Assembly: GCA_903932045.1 (NCBI GenBank)
Contig: CAIZES010000072.1
Coordinates: 1-32,358 of the forward strand
DNA length: 32,358 bases
From: an uncultured Silvanigrella sp.
GTDB taxonomy: Bacteria; Bdellovibrionota_B; Oligoflexia; Silvanigrellales; Silvanigrellaceae
Reading direction: 5' to 3'
Shown here: piece after piece, positions 1 to 19,764 of the stretch
Layout of the letters: each line of letters starts with the position of its first letter
Numbering within the stretch: the first letter of the stretch is position 1
Translations under genes and position numbers: made by a program
The notes under the pieces: model-generated
Databases searched by the model: none
Told to the model about the DNA's origin: nothing
What the model saw: the letters and a program-made list of their open reading frames with translations, nothing else

Positions 1-308
1 AACTACGGGGCCGCGGCCTACTAGAGGGAGGCGTAGGCTAAGTGAGGGGCTGCCTCTCTTGAGCCTAAACCTACGAACATTTTTCGAGACAATTCGTTTT
101 AGATCCACTTTTGTTCCCCTCTTCATTACAATGGAAGTATAACTGGGCGAAATGCCTTCCATCAGGGACACAGAAGTCTTATCTTGGATCTACATGGCAA
201 GCTAGCAATGACTCAAAGAAACCTCTAAGCCGCAAAAAACATGAATATTTCTTAGGAGGTATAGGATAATATCCCCTTCCCGAGATCCTCAAAAAATTTA
301 TGGGGACG
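1..308. other. gene-free stretch with three consecutive hairpins
   Basis: No convincing open reading frame or tRNA is visible here. Three stem-loops can be drawn. The first pairs 34-47 with 53-67 (about 14 pairs, one bulge, one mismatch, 5-nt loop). The second pairs 131-137 with 156-162 (7 perfect pairs). The third pairs 221-229 with 251-260 (9 pairs and one bulged base, 21-nt loop). A short inverted repeat also lies at 264-274. Bases 24-32 could alternatively pair with 52-60, competing with the first hairpin. This could be the tail of a structured RNA gene entering from the left, or the 3' region of the leftward gene at 309-845. The third hairpin, read on the minus strand, is followed by a T-rich stretch and could serve as a weak terminator for that gene. 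No known RNA family was recognised. Confidence 0.4.
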
Positions 309-845
309 TCAAAATCCCGCACCCCCCCGACGAAGAATAATTTTTAAATCGTCCAAGGCAGAATCGAAATCAAGTCCAACGCATAGAATATTTTGATCTG
401 ACGCAAGAGATCCGTCGTAGACAGTCTCGTGCAGGCGAGGCAACGCTCTCTCCAAAGCCACCCTCAGTGAAACTTGAACAGCAAACTCCTCCACAAAGGA
501 CCGAAGTTCGGTAGCGGATGGAAGAGATGCACGGGTTGTTGCGTTATTCTCAACAGAAAGAGCCAACTGATGCAAATAACCTAGCGAAGCAGAATTGAGA
601 AGAGAACAACTGGGATGGAGAGATCTCAAAAGCGCCACTTTTTTAGAAAAAGTAGGTGCAACCAATTCCAAATTATGAAATTGAAAAAGCAGACAAGAAA
701 ACAGGCGCTCCATAATAACCTCAATGTGGATTATCAGGTCCTTTGCTTTCTTTGAATTGCTACGATACGAGGAACTAGCCTTATCATGCAGAAGTGCGTC
801 TAGCTCTTGTTCAAAAAATGTTTTTACTAGCTCCAAAAAATCCAT
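309..845 (-). CDS. hypothetical protein, about 178 aa
   Basis: Unrecognised protein. The ATG at 845 is preferred over the ATG at 878 because a GGGG-type SD lies about 6 nt before it, whereas the upstream ATG has none. The protein starts MDFLELVKTFF and has no signal peptide or clear membrane segment. It looks like a mostly helical cytoplasmic protein: a charged N-terminal third (a Lys/Ser-rich stretch around residues 28-36) is followed by leucine-rich amphipathic segments. It ends in a glycine/arginine-rich tail (RRGGAGF). It stands alone, divergent from the gcv operon, with a hairpin-rich gene-free stretch beyond its stop. Codon use resembles the neighbours, so it is probably a real gene, but no function can be proposed. 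Confidence 0.5.
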   Translation of the reverse strand: MDFLELVKTFFEQELDALLHDKASSSYRSNSKKAKDLIIHIEVIMERLFSCLLFQFHNLELVAPTFSKKVALLRSLHPSCSLLNSASLGYLHQLALSVENNATTRASLPSATELRSFVEEFAVQVSLRVALERALPRLHETVYDGSLASDQNILCVGLDFDSALDDLKIILRRGGAGF

Positions 846-10831: not shown

Positions 10832-13800
10832 GTGCTAAGAAAGTTGCTGCGCACTCTTATCATTGAACGATTCCGCGTGATCTGGCTAACTCTTATCTTG
10901 TGTTTAGCCGGACTCGAAATTTATATTCGCACTCCCATTGAATTATTGCCAAAATCCAATCCACAACAATATCTCGTGGCAGTATTAAACCCCGGAGAAC
11001 CTGGCGGCAATGACACAAAAAAAATAGAGCGAATTGTCCGTGAAAGCGCATCACAGATAGCATCTATCGAAAACGTTTACTCCGAGATATCTCCCCAGCT
11101 TTTGGTAACCAGAATTTCCGCTCCGCAAATACCCACAAATTTTACCGACGCACTCAGAGCTTCAATCGCTCAAAAATTTTCGGAGAACGAAATTCGAAAG
11201 TTCTTTCAAGTGACCGCTTTGGGGCGAGAGTCAGCATCAACAATTGACCTCATGATAACTCAAAAGGACGGCACCAACACATCATCCACAGAAGTTATTC
11301 CAGCCACTGAAATCGTAGTAAAACTTATTCCAGCCCTAGAACAAATACGCGGCATTTCTGCTGTGCGCTCACAAGGACTGCCATCCGAAGACATTGCCTT
11401 GCGCCCCCTGCCAGGCATGCTCTTGAATGCGTCTGAAAGCGAAATCGAAATCGCGAAAAAAATATCGGAAACGTTCCGCCCACCTTCTCTTTGGGAACCC
11501 ACTCCATATGGAACTATCCTTTCCGAACGCTACCTTCCCGCAAGCAGAATTGAAAGTATTCCAATTTCCATAAACTCAAAAGCGACACAATCAACAACGA
11601 TTGGCAATCTGTACGCAGTTGAAAAACATATCGATCCGCATGCTGCAGTGGTTCTCAGCAACTCAAGCACCGCTTTTCTTTTGGCAATTCACACAACAGC
11701 GAAGGCCGACCTTGTTCAAACCAGTTTACAGGTTAAGAGTTACCTAGAGCGCTTTAATAAAGACTCGCAGAAATATACCGCTACCATTGTGTCGGACGCA
11801 GCAGACTACATTAATGCTGCTCAAGAAAACGTTGGCGACAATTTAAAGTGGGGCGTCATATTAACATGTCTTTGCATATTGATATTTGCACAGAATATAC
11901 GATATACGGCAATCACAGCCATATCCATTCCCGTGAGTCTCGCTCTCACATTTCCATTTTTTGAAATATTTTCCATCAGCAGAAACGTTATGTCTCTGGC
12001 AGGAATTACACTCAGTGTAGGAGTTGTTGTAGACGCAACAATCGCTGTAGTCGATGGAATAGACAGCGGCATGAGAAAAGGGTTGACAGCAACCGAAGCT
12101 GCATGGCAGTCCGCATGCGAAAACTTTATGGCCGTCGCAATGACCTCGCTTTCAACGCTTGCGGTATTTGTTCCAATCTTATTTTTGAAAGGAACGGTGG
12201 GTGATCTCTTTTTCGACCTTTCTCTTACCGTCATTATTTCCCAAACAATTGCGTTTCTTGTTGCCGTATTTATTGTTCCCGGACTCACATCGGCAATTTA
12301 CGAAATCATGAATGTTCATTTCGAAACCGAGTCAGATGATCAAACCGTCACCGAAAATATTTGGTCACGCGCTTTCGCTTCGGCCGTAAAAGTTCTTCTC
12401 ACACGAAAACTCTTTTACTGGAGTGCAGGAATTGCATCAATTGCTCTTGCGGTTATTGGCGTCGCAATATCCCCTCCTACCGAATTTCTGCCCAAACGCG
12501 CATCACACGAATTTCGAGCCATTTCTCCCGAAGCGAGTGAGAGCGATAACAGTTTGGTGATGGCCCAAAGGGTAGACGAAACACTTAGAAAAATGGGAGC
12601 CGAAAAACGGTTGGTTCTTGTTGACTCATCCGGACTCCGTGCAGATTTTTCCATTCCTCAGGGAAAGTCTGCGGAACTTCGACTCATGGAGGAGTTCATT
12701 AACAGAGGGACACAGCCATATCGTACTATGGTTTCAGCGAGAAATCCAATTGATGTTGAAGCCACAAATAGTCGGGATCTAGAATTCTACATTCCGGAAC
12801 ATTTGCAAAATCGAGCAAGCTTTAAATCTGAAGTTGAAGCCATTGCCGGCGTCTCCAGTGCTCGGTGGAGTTCAGAAAACACCGCACTCTACTCGCGTCT
12901 CGATACCGACAGCTTTCGAATGTTAACCCTTCCGAGTGCGCCGGGCACAGCTTGGGCATTGTGGAGTTTTTCATATTCCAAGCTCTTGCTGGGCGCCGAT
13001 ATCCCTTCACACGAATGGGAACGCACACGACAACCACGGCTGATTTGGAGAGAACCCAGAGATGGAGACACTCGAACCCATCCCGCGCTAAACAGCACAA
13101 TTCCTGAGTCACGCGAGGATATTCTGACATCAACACTGCGTCATGCTAAAACATCTGTAATTGTTAATGGCGAGACCACCGAAGGCGTTGCTCTCAAAAT
13201 TCAAGGTAAAACAGTAACGGAAGTGTCTGCAGATTTGGAAAAAATAGCAAATAGACACAAAGTTCAGCTGACATGGGGAATTAGCAAAAAAGATGCGGAC
13301 AGAAGTATTCGCGACCTCGGTATTTGTTTTGTAATTGCAACTATTGCAATAATTGCGCTTCTTTATATTCAAAATCGTTCATTCTCGGTAACGACGGTTA
13401 TCATGTGCACTTTTATTTGGGGTCTCATTGGATCATTTCCTGGGCTAGTTATCCATGGTGAAAGCCTAAATGCCAGCGCAATTGTTGGATTCATTCTTTT
13501 GGCAGGAACTATCGTCAATAACGGAATTTTGCTGATGTCACTTGTTGGCCGATCGCGTCGCGCACAGCTCGCTCCCGGACTCTGTTGTTTAGATGCTGTG
13601 AGTCATCGAACAATTCCTGTGTTTATCACTTCTCTCACAACCGCCGTTGGAATGCTTCCGATGGTATGGGACACGGGCGAGGGCTCACAAATGTATCGCG
13701 CTCTCTCCATAGTTGTGGTTTACGGAACAATGGTCAGCACCCCCATCAGCCTAATTGGCATTCCAAGCATTTTCATGATTCTCTACGACATTCAAGAAGC

Positions 13801-13876
13801 CTTTGAGAGGATACGACTCCGCATTCTCATCCTATTCTCAAAAAATTCACAAGAAACACAGGAGACGATTCCATGA
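10832..13876 (+). CDS. RND-family inner-membrane transporter subunit
   Basis: A 1014-aa protein with the AcrB/HAE1 layout: one N-terminal membrane helix (about 13-33), a periplasmic domain (about 40-335), a helix block (about 338-500), a second periplasmic domain (about 560-830) and a C-terminal helix block (about 835-985). The helix-4 region reads LAGITLSVGVVVDATIAVV: only the first of the two relay aspartates is present (D401), the second being A402. The helix-10 lysine position is asparagine (N896, in TIVNNGILL), a variant also known in other RND branches. GTG at 10832 is the start because GGAG lies 6 nt before it. It overlaps the next gene by 4 nt (ATGA). No membrane-fusion protein or TolC-like gene lies beside it. 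Substrate unknown. Confidence 0.85.
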   Translation: MLRKLLRTLIIERFRVIWLTLILCLAGLEIYIRTPIELLPKSNPQQYLVAVLNPGEPGGNDTKKIERIVRESASQIASIENVYSEISPQLLVTRISAPQIPTNFTDALRASIAQKFSENEIRKFFQVTALGRESASTIDLMITQKDGTNTSSTEVIPATEIVVKLIPALEQIRGISAVRSQGLPSEDIALRPLPGMLLNASESEIEIAKKISETFRPPSLWEPTPYGTILSERYLPASRIESIPISINSKATQSTTIGNLYAVEKHIDPHAAVVLSNSSTAFLLAIHTTAKADLVQTSLQVKSYLERFNKDSQKYTATIVSDAADYINAAQENVGDNLKWGVILTCLCILIFAQNIRYTAITAISIPVSLALTFPFFEIFSISRNVMSLAGITLSVGVVVDATIAVVDGIDSGMRKGLTATEAAWQSACENFMAVAMTSLSTLAVFVPILFLKGTVGDLFFDLSLTVIISQTIAFLVAVFIVPGLTSAIYEIMNVHFETESDDQTVTENIWSRAFASAVKVLLTRKLFYWSAGIASIALAVIGVAISPPTEFLPKRASHEFRAISPEASESDNSLVMAQRVDETLRKMGAEKRLVLVDSSGLRADFSIPQGKSAELRLMEEFINRGTQPYRTMVSARNPIDVEATNSRDLEFYIPEHLQNRASFKSEVEAIAGVSSARWSSENTALYSRLDTDSFRMLTLPSAPGTAWALWSFSYSKLLLGADIPSHEWERTRQPRLIWREPRDGDTRTHPALNSTIPESREDILTSTLRHAKTSVIVNGETTEGVALKIQGKTVTEVSADLEKIANRHKVQLTWGISKKDADRSIRDLGICFVIATIAIIALLYIQNRSFSVTTVIMCTFIWGLIGSFPGLVIHGESLNASAIVGFILLAGTIVNNGILLMSLVGRSRRAQLAPGLCCLDAVSHRTIPVFITSLTTAVGMLPMVWDTGEGSQMYRALSIVVVYGTMVSTPISLIGIPSIFMILYDIQEAFERIRLRILILFSKNSQETQETIP

Positions 13877-16800
13877 ATCTTTCTGTGCATGCAATCCAAA
13901 AAACAAGTTTGGCTCTAACATTGCTTCTTGCAATTTTGGCATTCGCAATCGCAATTGAATATCCGGATCTCATTGGAAAATACGTGCGTTCTCATGAAGC
14001 TCACGTTTGGCGTCTCAATCTTGAAGTCAATTCAGCGCCTGCAACAGTGCATGCAACCACGTTGGCTTCAATGCTAGAGCGCAGTCTTAAGAGTCAGGAA
14101 CAAATCGAAAATTTAATAATTTCAACCACACCCACAAGAATAACTGCGCACTTTTACACAAAGCCGTCTGTACTTCCAAAAGATCTTGCAACTGCGCTCA
14201 ACGCCAAAATCAGCGCAATCCAAGATTCCGGAACGACCCCTCAATTCGAAACAACTTTCTATTACGACGCACTCTCAAAAGTGGAGAATGTTGGAACAAA
14301 CTTGGATGCATTAAGAGACTCTGCAACTCAAACCCTATCGTTTGCTTTGGAATCAGCTACGAACAACGAAAAGCGAAACATTCTTGCTCTTGCGAGTCCG
14401 GATATTATTCTCGATTCAACCCAATCTGCTGGAACCAGCGTCGATATCAATGCACTCGATCTTCTCTTGCAAAGGCTTCATACCATTCGTGGAGTGCAAA
14501 AAGCATTTGCACGAAATGTTAGAATTCCCACTCTCCAAGTGGAAACAGATCCCAGACAACTTCTGCAACTTGGAATTTCTCCACAGATTATCCACAAAAC
14601 AATTCAAACTCATCTGCGCATTGATCAAGGTATTTCTGAGAATATCCTGGGACAGAGAGGATACATCTTTCGAAAAAAATCGGAAACGACACAAGAAATT
14701 TGCACCCTTTCATTTCAAGTTCCGAAAAACTCCGCGTTACTCCACGTGTGTGACGTATCGAAAGTTGAGTCGACCCCAATGTTCCTGGATTTCTATACGG
14801 TAGGAACATCTCTAGCCACACTCGAGAAACGAATTCGTGAGCAGAACAAAGCAACCTTAAATCCTACAAAAGAGAAGAGCTCTATTGTTATCATTCTCGA
14901 CTCAGAAACGGTTGCACAAGACCTAGTCGAAGAAATTGAGTCGGCAATTCATGTGCAGGCGGGCTCTCCGCAGTGGACTATTAGTTCTGTTCGAAAAGCA
15001 AATACGGGGGCATATAATTTCGCGTTCTTCTTTGCATCAATGATTATTCTTGCGATACTTGCATTTTCTAGAAAAGAAAGTTTCGGAAATCGACGTCTTT
15101 TTTTGTTCTTACTCGCTCATGCCACCGCCTTTTGGAGCGCAGCAACCTTAGCTTTGGGAATTGACGCTCATCCCCAGTTACTTGGAATTCCTCTTCTCGC
15201 AGCTGCCGTGGCGTTTGCAACTCACCGCTGCGAAAGTCTTCTAAAAGGTTTGCACGGAGCAAAAAACGCTCGTCTAACCTTTGCTGCATTTTCGGTTGGT
15301 ATTGCCGCCACCACAATATTTGCACGCTCATTTATCAATTTTGGACAATCTCAATTCGACACCATCGCATCGGGCGCTCTAGCGATGGCCGCAGGTATCT
15401 ACGCGTTCAGTCTTGCCCCGCAACTTATGAACGAATCACAAGCATCCACACATCAAGCCGACGTGGCATTTCACGCCAGAACAGGCCTGATTTCTCTCGT
15501 TGTTCCACTTCTTGGGGTTGCTATTTCAATGCTGCCAACGATAAATTTTCCAAGCACGATATTTATTTCGCTTGGATTTGAAGGCGGCACTTCGGTTGAT
15601 ATCGCTCAAAATGCTGCCGCAAACATTGAACGCATTGCGCGAGAAAACAAGGCAACCGCAGTTATCGCCGCTCCAGAAAAAACCTCTGTCATTCAACTCA
15701 AACCCTCTCCATTTTCTCTACTGAACACAGCCACCGTTCCTCTCGAAGAAATTCTCGCATCCCTGCACCCATCCATTCCGGGAGAGACAAACATTCAAGA
15801 AAAATCTGGATCGATAACGCGTCAACCAGTGATTGTAAAGAGTAACTTCTCCGAAATCATGCCAACAAATACTCGAAAAGAAAATGACGATGACCTTGTT
15901 CGCTTTCAAAAATGGATGGATACCATGCAACAACCCATTTCGTCAGATTCACAAAATTCTCTGCAATCAAGGGCTCAATTTGGATTCCAAAAAAGTGAAA
16001 AGAAAAACTTTCTTTCCATGAGCGCTCTGGTTGTTCCAGAATGGAGTCGAGAAATAACGAGAATCTCAATATCTAATATTGGAGAAACAACTCTAGCAGA
16101 AATTCATAGTCGTGAAGGAGAAAGAAATATTCGCGCAAACCTCGACAACTTTCTATCGCAATTTCAACAAAACACCAAATCCGAATTACAAACACACATT
16201 TCAGATACAGCTTCCGAGATTGCCATGCTGACCCACAATCAAACCATAGGCACACTTATGCTTGCTGCCATACTTTTTCTTGCGGGAATTCTCTACTTTG
16301 CTTCAACAGAACGCGCACTTCTCACCACCGTCACATTTGGAGCAATTCACCTCACTGTAAAAGGAGTTTTTCATCTTTTTACCATTCCGCACGGTCTCGA
16401 CGCTATTTCCGAAACTCTTCTTTTTCCTTCCACAGAAACCTGGGCATCAACACTTCTCCTCACACTTTGGGCTATTCTTCTTAAAACAGCCGACTACAGG
16501 AGAGCCATGAATATGAGTCTCGACGAAGCTTTCTTTTTGCAGACTCGAATCACAAGACAACTTCGGCGATGGGGATTAATACCGGCACTTGTGATTTCCA
16601 TTTGTGGAATATTTTACTCTAATGTCGCATTGCTTGGAGGAGCTACCATGGCACTTTGGATAGTTGGCGGCTTTTTGTTGCCCGATTGGATGCTTATTTG
16701 GACCAAACTTGCAGAGTGGAAAAACAGAACGTTGCTAAAACTGCACATTCATTTTAAGACCTTGTTAATCTTTATTTTCGCAATATCTCTAGTTCATGTT

Positions 16801-18156
16801 TCAAAGGCAAGAGCAAGCACAGACACAAGCACAATTGACTCACAGTGCGACGGAACGGTAACCATTATCCTTCCCATTCTCGGCCGACCAAAAGGAAAAG
16901 AGCCCGTTCCTCAACGCACATTTCTTTCGGAACGTTTGGCACAAGAAACCAAATGTTCTTGGGTTGAATACGGGCTTACAAGCGACATTATTAAAATCTT
17001 GGAAGGACTCCGTTCAACAGCGGCACAAAGTCGTCTTGTTAGCGATTTTGGGTCTTTTGTTTTGAAAAATCGCGGAAAAATTGAAAGTGCAGCCATCGCA
17101 CATCTGCGAAAAGACGACAAGCAAGCAAGCGCACGAGTTCGAATCTTTGGTGGTTTTTACGAAGAATTTTTGGGTTCGATTTCTTTTTCTATCCTAGAAT
17201 TTCCAAAGGGAAGCGACCCAATCGTTACAAAAATGTCGTCTTCTGAAGAGCAACAAACGCAAACAATTTCGAAGTTAGCGCGCTACATTCGCGGGGAAAA
17301 CGCCCAGCTGCATGAAGAACTTTTAGGTGAAGTCAGTCGCCTCCCGGTGTTTCTGGAACCCGTCGAAAGCTTAGATAAACATCCAGTTTCTGAAAATATT
17401 GCCGGTGAGCTCAATCTTTTTCTGACGAGCAGATTTATAAATCCTCTTTCCTCGAATTTGCTTGAAAGAAAAACCTTCTTTCGCATTGAAAAAAATGCGG
17501 ATGCCTCAAAGTTTGTTCTCAACGTGAAACTTCGTCGCGATGAAACCCGATTCTATGCATCAATTACGGCACGAGCAAGAAACGGAGAAGCGCGAAGAAG
17601 TGCTTGGATTGAGGGCGACGTAAGCCAGTTCACGGAATTTGAAGAAGAAGTTCTTGCTGTTTCAAAAAAGATTCTGTCAAACATAGAAGGAATTGCTGAC
17701 TACTTCGTTGCGTTGGACACTGAATATTATGTTTCGGGATCTCACGATGTCGCGCAAATGTATGGCATATATTTCCGGCAAAACCTAGGAAACGCCGCAT
17801 TGAGCATAAGGCTTCGCAACGGACAAATTGCAGCAAAAGAAGATAAAGCCAACATTGGAATCTTTGGTTTTGGAGGGTCTTTTGGATGGCAGTTTTTTGA
17901 TGTCCGCTGGATCACCGGAGATTTTGGAGTTTCTGCTGACGCAGGAATAGCAACGCCACCCGATAGTTCAAGTCGCGATCTGTGGATTAGCTATGGAGGT
18001 TATATTCAATTTCAATCTAGTCTGCGAAAAAATTTCGCTCTCATCACACGAACCGGGGTGGAGCAGCCTCAGCTTTTTGGAGCCACCGGCGACCGCAAAA
18101 CCATCTTTCATCCGGTTTATTTAAACGCACTAGTGGGCATTGGAGTCATATTTTAG
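13873..18156 (+). CDS. degenerate RND-like protein fused to periplasmic domain and outer-membrane-type barrel
   Basis: A 1427-aa protein coupled to the preceding RND gene by an ATGA overlap. Residues 1 to about 955 follow the RND layout (helix at 12-29, soluble domain, helix block about 375-525, second soluble domain, helix block about 795-950) but have lost the relay residues. The helix-4 counterpart reads LLAAAVAFATHRCESL (441-456) and the helix-10 counterpart LLLTLWAILLKTADY (861-875). Residues about 955-981 look like a signal peptide with a signal-peptidase site (SKARA before S982). Residues 982-1270 are a mixed soluble domain; two loosely similar beta halves may be present. The last 150 residues show about eight alternating hydrophobic strands and end YLNALVGIGVIF, an outer-membrane barrel C-terminal signal with terminal Phe. 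No stop or frameshift interrupts the fusion. Confidence 0.75.
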   Translation: MNLSVHAIQKTSLALTLLLAILAFAIAIEYPDLIGKYVRSHEAHVWRLNLEVNSAPATVHATTLASMLERSLKSQEQIENLIISTTPTRITAHFYTKPSVLPKDLATALNAKISAIQDSGTTPQFETTFYYDALSKVENVGTNLDALRDSATQTLSFALESATNNEKRNILALASPDIILDSTQSAGTSVDINALDLLLQRLHTIRGVQKAFARNVRIPTLQVETDPRQLLQLGISPQIIHKTIQTHLRIDQGISENILGQRGYIFRKKSETTQEICTLSFQVPKNSALLHVCDVSKVESTPMFLDFYTVGTSLATLEKRIREQNKATLNPTKEKSSIVIILDSETVAQDLVEEIESAIHVQAGSPQWTISSVRKANTGAYNFAFFFASMIILAILAFSRKESFGNRRLFLFLLAHATAFWSAATLALGIDAHPQLLGIPLLAAAVAFATHRCESLLKGLHGAKNARLTFAAFSVGIAATTIFARSFINFGQSQFDTIASGALAMAAGIYAFSLAPQLMNESQASTHQADVAFHARTGLISLVVPLLGVAISMLPTINFPSTIFISLGFEGGTSVDIAQNAAANIERIARENKATAVIAAPEKTSVIQLKPSPFSLLNTATVPLEEILASLHPSIPGETNIQEKSGSITRQPVIVKSNFSEIMPTNTRKENDDDLVRFQKWMDTMQQPISSDSQNSLQSRAQFGFQKSEKKNFLSMSALVVPEWSREITRISISNIGETTLAEIHSREGERNIRANLDNFLSQFQQNTKSELQTHISDTASEIAMLTHNQTIGTLMLAAILFLAGILYFASTERALLTTVTFGAIHLTVKGVFHLFTIPHGLDAISETLLFPSTETWASTLLLTLWAILLKTADYRRAMNMSLDEAFFLQTRITRQLRRWGLIPALVISICGIFYSNVALLGGATMALWIVGGFLLPDWMLIWTKLAEWKNRTLLKLHIHFKTLLIFIFAISLVHVSKARASTDTSTIDSQCDGTVTIILPILGRPKGKEPVPQRTFLSERLAQETKCSWVEYGLTSDIIKILEGLRSTAAQSRLVSDFGSFVLKNRGKIESAAIAHLRKDDKQASARVRIFGGFYEEFLGSISFSILEFPKGSDPIVTKMSSSEEQQTQTISKLARYIRGENAQLHEELLGEVSRLPVFLEPVESLDKHPVSENIAGELNLFLTSRFINPLSSNLLERKTFFRIEKNADASKFVLNVKLRRDETRFYASITARARNGEARRSAWIEGDVSQFTEFEEEVLAVSKKILSNIEGIADYFVALDTEYYVSGSHDVAQMYGIYFRQNLGNAALSIRLRNGQIAAKEDKANIGIFGFGGSFGWQFFDVRWITGDFGVSADAGIATPPDSSSRDLWISYGGYIQFQSSLRKNFALITRTGVEQPQLFGATGDRKTIFHPVYLNALVGIGVIF

Positions 18157-18161
18157 CATCT

Positions 18162-18191
18162 ATTACAGCCACGATTATTACAGCCACGATT
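18162..18191 (+). repeat. 15-bp perfect tandem duplication between convergent genes
   Basis: ATTACAGCCACGATT occurs twice back to back, at 18162-18176 and 18177-18191, just after the stop of the RND-barrel gene. The second copy reaches into the stop codon of the leftward L,D-transpeptidase-like gene. No terminator hairpin is seen at this junction. Confidence 0.9.
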
Positions 18192-19581
18192 ATTCCAAAA
18201 AACTCTCTATTTCAGCAATGCTCACTGGCAAACGATTGTCTCCAGGAACATCAATCACCGTAACATATCCAGATGGCGATGGGGTTTCTTGTACCTGCGA
18301 GAGCTTCTTTAACAGGGTTCTCATATCCGTTTTGACAGGATTTCCATTATCGTCATAAATTTCTCGAGCCGAAAGACATCCTAGAGCAGGATTCCATTCC
18401 AGCCCGCTGCTGTAGCCTTTTTTAATTGCAAATCCATCGAGAGCCTCGCCAGTGCCATGAATTCTAAGCACGCTACGCCCCATTTTTCCGGCATAATACG
18501 ACTGCATAATGGGCCGATAGGAACGCCAACTTTCTGGCCACATTTTTTGGTACTCCGTTTCATCACCCCTGAAACTTCCGCTCTTCCAAGGCAAGAAACG
18601 ATTTGGGCCACTCTCAAACGGCAAGAAAATTACAATTTCGTTAAATTGTCCGTACGCTCTAAACTCCTGAGACTGTGGATGTTGCAATCCTTCCATTCTC
18701 AAAATTCCCTGAGGAGTGGCACCTTGCGAAAAATTCCACGCCACACCATATATCGACGATGTTCGCAGAGACATCATCCAAATATGATTGTCCTCGCGCA
18801 GAAAACTTCCATCTGGTTTGCGCAAAATAGTAGAACACACAACATTGCGATCCGGACGACACAGAACAAAGAGGTGGGGTTCCTTGCTTTCGCGGTATCG
18901 CAAAAGATCTTTGATATCTGGAAAACTTCCATTTCCGCGCCTTTGTAAAATTCCTTCAACAGTTGTTGCAAGTTGAGTACTGCCTCGCCAACCAGGAAAG
19001 CGTGAGTAAAAAGCATTGAGCAATGAACTCATTTGAGCACTGCCAATTTTGCCACCATTATCAAGAGCCGATAAAGCAATTGCAACAAATGTTTCGTTCG
19101 GACTCTTTTGAGTAATTCTCAAAAACTCCCTTTCGATTTCATCAGCTTTCGGAAACTTTCCTAGGTACAATGTGGTTGCCAAACGCATTGCTGACATCAG
19201 TATTTGCTGCTCACTCTGATTGCGAATAGAATACAACGACCGCTCAATAATCTGCACAACTGCTGCTTGAACGAACCAATCGTCCTTCGTTGCAACGCAA
19301 GCAGCATCATAAAGAACAATCTGCCAATGCTTTGCATTTTGAGCATTCACTGGAAAATTTCCCAAATCAAAATTGGACGGCCGGATATTCGATCGCTGGC
19401 CCCGGTAGTTTTCAGCACGCTGCGAAGCTGTTGCCTGCAATTGCCGCGTTCCACCAACCCCTTCGCTTGCCTCAGCCAGCTGATAAATCGCAGGAAAAAG
19501 AAAGGTACAATAACTCAACTTTTTTGAAAGCTTAATAAAATTCCGAGAAAAAACATGAAATTGAGGTATCACATGTGACAT
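18190..19581 (-). CDS. exported L,D-transpeptidase-like (YkuD-type) protein
   Basis: L,D-transpeptidases cross-link peptidoglycan stem peptides or attach proteins to them, using a cysteine. Here residues 284-298 (FSQGATPQGILRMEG) resemble the YkuD substrate-loop 'G..TP.G.f'. LRIHGTG contains the conserved histidine (H375), and NPALGCLSAREIYD contains the catalytic cysteine (C402). The usual [S/T]HGC is replaced by ALGC, so the active site is divergent. An N-terminal segment (residues about 16-38, LSYCTFLFPAIYQLAEA) looks like a signal peptide; residues 80-225 are a helical domain of unknown role. ATG 19581 is chosen for AAAGGA 7 nt upstream; the frame is open to 19725 but without an SD. It is the last gene of the nusB cluster. 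Confidence 0.68.
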   Translation of the reverse strand: MSHVIPQFHVFSRNFIKLSKKLSYCTFLFPAIYQLAEASEGVGGTRQLQATASQRAENYRGQRSNIRPSNFDLGNFPVNAQNAKHWQIVLYDAACVATKDDWFVQAAVVQIIERSLYSIRNQSEQQILMSAMRLATTLYLGKFPKADEIEREFLRITQKSPNETFVAIALSALDNGGKIGSAQMSSLLNAFYSRFPGWRGSTQLATTVEGILQRRGNGSFPDIKDLLRYRESKEPHLFVLCRPDRNVVCSTILRKPDGSFLREDNHIWMMSLRTSSIYGVAWNFSQGATPQGILRMEGLQHPQSQEFRAYGQFNEIVIFLPFESGPNRFLPWKSGSFRGDETEYQKMWPESWRSYRPIMQSYYAGKMGRSVLRIHGTGEALDGFAIKKGYSSGLEWNPALGCLSAREIYDDNGNPVKTDMRTLLKKLSQVQETPSPSGYVTVIDVPGDNRLPVSIAEIESFLE

Positions 19582-19630
19582 AGAAAAATCCTTTCCTAGC
19601 GGCAAGAAAATCGGAAACTGAAACTGAACC

Positions 19631-19650
19631 GAGACGCCATAGCACGTCTC
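19631..19650 (-). other. hairpin in the leader of the L,D-transpeptidase-like gene
   Basis: GAGACG and CGTCTC pair perfectly around an 8-nt loop, about 50 nt before the chosen start codon. No T-run follows on the minus strand, so it is not a terminator. It may simply structure the 183-nt leader between the two genes. Confidence 0.4.
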
Positions 19651-19764
19651 TCCAAAAAGAAAAGGAAAAGTTTCTATAAATCCAAATAATTTACATTGAT
19701 GTTGTAGCACGTAAAAATCTTGCATTTTAAAAAGAAACTAGAGAAGTTCAACAAGGCCGTTGCA

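Follow-up and report, generated by a model that had tools for sequence, protein, structure and literature searches.

An inert RND-like protein and an outer-membrane protein encoded as one chain in a few Silvanigrellales

The window, by which we mean the whole stretch of 32,358 nucleotides analyzed, comes from a draft genome of 4.2 Mb, in which it lies on contig C72. It contains two genes in tandem on the forward strand. The upstream gene, which we call RND1 (10832–13876), encodes an RND permease of 1014 amino acids that matches Pfam ACR_tran with E = 4.5e-86. It has the aspartate of TM4, with the motifs ...GVVVDATIAVV (VDAT) in TM4 and ...GTIVNNGILL (VNNG) in TM10, and is presumed to be the energised partner. 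The second gene (13873–18156) begins with an ATG, shares the four nucleotides ATGA with the end of RND1 and is preceded by a Shine-Dalgarno sequence that makes a good ribosome site. It is one open frame of 1427 codons with no internal stop, and encodes an RND-like part that we call RND2, a short segment resembling an internal signal peptide and a tail. An inert pump-like inner-membrane protein and an outer-membrane protein are thus made as one chain, and this is found in a few Silvanigrellales. Downstream on the opposite strand lies a frame of 511 amino acids (18190–19725, reverse strand) with no Pfam match. Scans for promoters and terminators gave nothing informative.

A long frame of this kind could arise from a sequencing error or by chance, but this is ruled out by a matching fusion in a second genus (genome G003). 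There the same join lies within a single frame of 1501 amino acids that is ∼24% identical overall to the window protein. Since the join is present in two independently assembled genomes at this level of identity, a local frame error is excluded, and the uninterrupted frame described in the earlier note is real. In a third genus (G001) the order is the same, but RND1, RND2 and the tail are three separate genes. A free-standing tail in a homologue had been put forward as evidence against the fusion if it came with a sequencing error in the window; the first part was found and the second was excluded. As G001 makes both halves from neighboring genes, we regard the fusion as a new variation within an established pump design and not as a new machine. 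Two genera with a fused tail and a third with a free one offer a natural comparison.

The locus is rare. Relatives of the fused protein were found in only two other genomes among 96 searched. The phylum-wide search for the tail covered the 58 genomes of the class, where it is present in three. A scan of genome contigs returned G001 and G003 only, and when a single protein was used as the query the contig scan found no relatives. Both of these nearest relatives sharing the locus are labeled Silvanigrellales. We found no report of a fusion of the RND2-tail type in the open-access literature.

RND2 (13873–16731, forward strand) gives no match over residues 1–953 to Pfam or NCBIfam models, those of ACR_tran and the RND family included. 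Profile comparison is more informative. Residues 14–264 align with a profile of five RND proteins with an hhalign E-value of 3e-9, compared with 0.03 for the best of 15 local shuffles and 0.43 for the reversed profile. Independently, a profile built from all three RND2 sequences matches a canonical RND gene from another family (G022) with E = 7e-5 over residues 205–354. The C-terminal half alone matches RND profiles weakly (E = 0.014). The hydropathy of the window RND2 fits a 1+6+5 arrangement of helices, as do the helices of an AF2 model of very low confidence (pLDDT 36.7). In that model, which was too poor to be usable for a fold search, helix 1 is followed by a beta-alpha-beta-beta-alpha-beta unit like that of the RND porter domain. 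The RND layout previously proposed for residues 1 to about 955 is therefore supported by the hhalign match, and the helix order fits it, with one refinement. The alignment shows that the proton-relay residues, the aspartate of TM4 and the lysine or asparagine of TM10, are gone in all three RND2 sequences, and for this reason we term RND2 RND-like and inert. RND2 might instead be an unrelated 12-helix protein of the same operon and not an RND subunit. That would accord with the lack of a family match, the poor model and the weak C-terminal half, but we consider it quite unlikely given an N-terminal profile match far above the controls, the independent match in G022, and the helix layout with its porter-like unit.

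RND1 lies directly upstream of RND2 and the tail in all three genomes. That an RND gene with the TM4 aspartate is followed by one that lacks it suggests a pair of the MdtBC kind, with one energised and one inert subunit. MdtB and MdtC form an MdtB2C heterotrimer in which the RND subunits have unequal roles (PMC4338810). The window pair would resemble MdtBC and MuxBC in its tandem genes and unequal roles, but MdtB and MdtC are both recognizable RND permeases that are 50% identical, whereas RND2 matches no family model, has lost the relay and carries a fused tail. The RND1-RND2 tandem is found in three genera, with an adaptor gene nearby in two of them and, for the window genome, on a different contig, and its second member is only RND-like. 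A mixed trimer of RND1 and RND2 is probable by gene order and analogy. In G001 the RND1 gene (L005:10270–12900) is short, encoding 876 amino acids, and the second loop of RND2 is much shorter than in the window. The periplasmic parts of the pump therefore seem to be reduced in that genome.

The segment joining RND2 to the tail comprises residues 954–981 (16732–16815, forward strand), with a hydrophobic peak at 959–977. Its sequence in the window is LLKLHIHFKTLLIFIFAISLVHVSKARA/S, where the slash marks the predicted cleavage after ARA, and the aligned counterpart in G003 is TTLLSILAVSVPLLFPSRAEA/S. The tail gene of G001 begins with MKTLCAFALFALCALFLGEGVSLSKAYA/A, an N-terminal signal peptide that aligns with the window segment; the start of this gene and the stop codon of RND2 overlap in ATGA, preceded by AAAGGA. 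On inspection and alignment of the three sequences, the charged start, the hydrophobic core and the A-x-A site are all present. The A-x-A motif is kept in each, as SKARA/S in the window, SRAEA/S in G003 and SKAYA/A in G001. A signal-like segment had been predicted at about residues 955–981, following a helix 12 that ends in the cytoplasm. The first of these is supported by the alignment with the N-terminal signal peptide of the G001 tail, and the second should hold, as a linker rich in K, R and H is consistent with it.

Two fates of the tail had been envisaged, either release as a separate outer-membrane protein or retention in one polypeptide spanning both membranes. Cleavage is favored because the A-x-A motif is conserved and because the tail is free-standing with its own signal peptide in the third genus. 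To judge from the sequence, the chain is probably cut at its internal export signal. If it were left uncut, the thirteenth segment would remain as an anchor and a single polypeptide would link the inner membrane to the barrel in the outer membrane. The frame is uninterrupted in two genera, and a thirteenth segment following 12 helices would place the tail in the periplasm. Yet the A-x-A site is conserved in all three sequences, including the free-standing form, and only ∼295 mostly folded residues separate the anchor from the barrel, which is short for a bridge given the width of the periplasm. We consider an uncut chain unlikely.

The tail could also be made alone by internal initiation of translation, in which case fusion and cleavage would matter little. 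A candidate start is the in-frame ATG at 16648–16650 (forward strand), corresponding to M926, which is preceded by GGAGGAG with a Shine-Dalgarno ΔG of −9.3, a value reached by <1% of positions; a TTG at 16732 is weaker. In G001 the tail is encoded by a separate gene that has a start of its own. However, a product initiated at 16648 would begin inside helix 12, and with 18 internal ATG codons a single site of this kind is no great surprise. Moreover, G003 has no comparable site, with only GTG and TTG codons preceded by weak or no Shine-Dalgarno sequences ahead of the signal segment. Internal initiation of this kind is therefore rather unlikely, and cleavage of the precursor remains the reading that we prefer.

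An AF2 model of residues 983–1427, built from three sequences, has a mean pLDDT of 72.4 and a pTM of 0.48, with low confidence in the last strand. It predicts two alpha/beta domains followed by eight strands. The first periplasmic domain comprises residues 995–1140 (16855–17292), and the second, with a similar order of elements, residues 1156–1272 (17338–17688). Together they make up the ∼295 residues between signal and barrel. The eight strands lie at residues 1277–1425 within a C-terminal barrel of residues 1277–1427 (17701–18153, all on the forward strand), and the chain terminates in ...GVIF in the window protein and in L in G001. Among barrels the best Foldseek match is NspA, with a TM-score of 0.70 on the target, followed by OmpW, OmpA, OmpX and Ail. 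The barrel of about eight strands that the earlier note had placed in the last 150 residues is thus supported, while the two domains that precede it had gone unmentioned. When the full tail was used, TolB came first by E-value with a TM-score of only ∼0.2, and PqiC was a weak match; in this model the resemblance to these two proteins is no more than a hint.

The tail could not be placed in a known family, as searches of Pfam, NCBIfam and PDB sequences gave nothing significant, and DUF7882 fell under its cutoff. The tail has no OEP (TolC) domain, with the 8-stranded barrel in its place. The barrel topology at the C-terminus is shared with NspA, OmpA, OmpX and OmpW, but the tail barrel differs from these in following two periplasmic domains, in terminating an inner-membrane precursor and in having no Pfam barrel match. 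An 8-stranded barrel does not have a pore large enough for a drug. The tail barrel is too narrow to serve as exit duct.

This bears on the suggestion that RND2 and its tail take the place of TolC and adaptor, giving a two-gene pump that crosses the envelope. No TolC or adaptor gene adjoins the RND1/RND2-tail pair within the window, which speaks for that suggestion. However, a TolC gene and then an adaptor gene diverge from RND1 in both G001 and G003, and the window genome has orthologues of both on contig C229 that are 35% and 33% identical respectively to those of G001. The pump is therefore not short of a duct or an adaptor. Taken with the narrow barrel, these orthologues contradict the replacement proposed in the earlier note, which we reject as highly improbable.

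We can now set out how the fused gene might work. In the most likely interpretation, to which we give moderate confidence, RND2 would be the inert partner of RND1, while the tail would be exported via the internal signal, released by signal peptidase I and end up in the outer membrane as an accessory. The frame would be translated into a precursor of two parts, RND2 and an outer-membrane protein. RND2 would associate with RND1 in the mixed trimer, where RND1 would supply the energy to move a putative substrate, as MdtB does for MdtC. With helix 12 ending in the cytoplasm, export of the tail would be set off by residues 954–981, working as an internal signal peptide. Signal peptidase I would cut after ARA, and the BAM pathway would insert the freed tail into the outer membrane. 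There it may serve as an accessory of the pump; its periplasmic domains would most likely hold the TolC/adaptor part or position it.

There are precedents for parts of this scheme. The cytochrome b-c1 precursor (fbcH) of Bradyrhizobium japonicum has a polytopic inner-membrane protein, an internal signal peptide and an exported protein, and is cut by signal peptidase. The proteins are different from those of the RND2-tail precursor, and the exported part of fbcH is not an outer-membrane protein. No paper on the fbcH precursor was found in the open-access literature. If cleavage occurs in the RND2-tail chain, another example would be added to the bacterial precursors from which signal peptidase I makes, out of a single inner-membrane chain, proteins that belong to two membranes. 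An outer-membrane accessory of an RND pump is exemplified by YbjP, a lipoprotein that binds TolC in the TolC-YbjP-AcrABZ complex (PMC13095208). The tail may be comparable in role only, as YbjP is a lipoprotein and not a barrel. The locus points to an accessory of RND pumps in the outer membrane that had gone unrecognised.

The TolC genes of these pumps have a related feature. In G001 (L005:12742–14817) and G003 (L047:337–2241) the TolC frame begins with a cytoplasmic STAS domain, which an internal signal peptide links to TolC. The window genome has a STAS frame that is still open where contig C173 ends (2–367, minus strand; L046) and a TolC frame that is open at the start of contig C229 (2–1426; L045). 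These are probably the two parts of one STAS-TolC gene broken by the assembly. This pump family may, tentatively, make its outer-membrane components as precursors joined by internal signal peptides to a partner on the inner side, as RND2-barrel and STAS-TolC. Inert subunit and accessory would then be supplied one-to-one, with release by signal peptidase. We regard this as possible, while leaning against it.

The earlier note knew of no described RND protein of this type. That requires some qualification, as frames with ACR_tran and OEP domains and a signal-like stretch between them are present in the same family, in G001 (L031:372–4703, 1443 amino acids) and G002 (L032:419–4831, 1470 amino acids). 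Like the window protein, these RND-TolC fusions run in frame from an RND permease through a signal-like internal stretch into an outer-membrane protein, so that the architecture is known in kind. No paper on ACR_tran-OEP fusions was found in the open-access literature. They differ in combining a canonical RND, with its aspartate residues, and a TolC channel, whereas in the window an inert RND precedes two periplasmic domains and an OmpA-like barrel. What is unusual, and new, is the use of an inert RND paralogue as the carrier and a cargo that is not TolC. The window thus adds a case of an inert RND-like subunit carrying exported cargo other than TolC. Frames of a length similar to the RND-TolC fusions (1471–1472) are also present in G005 and G007.
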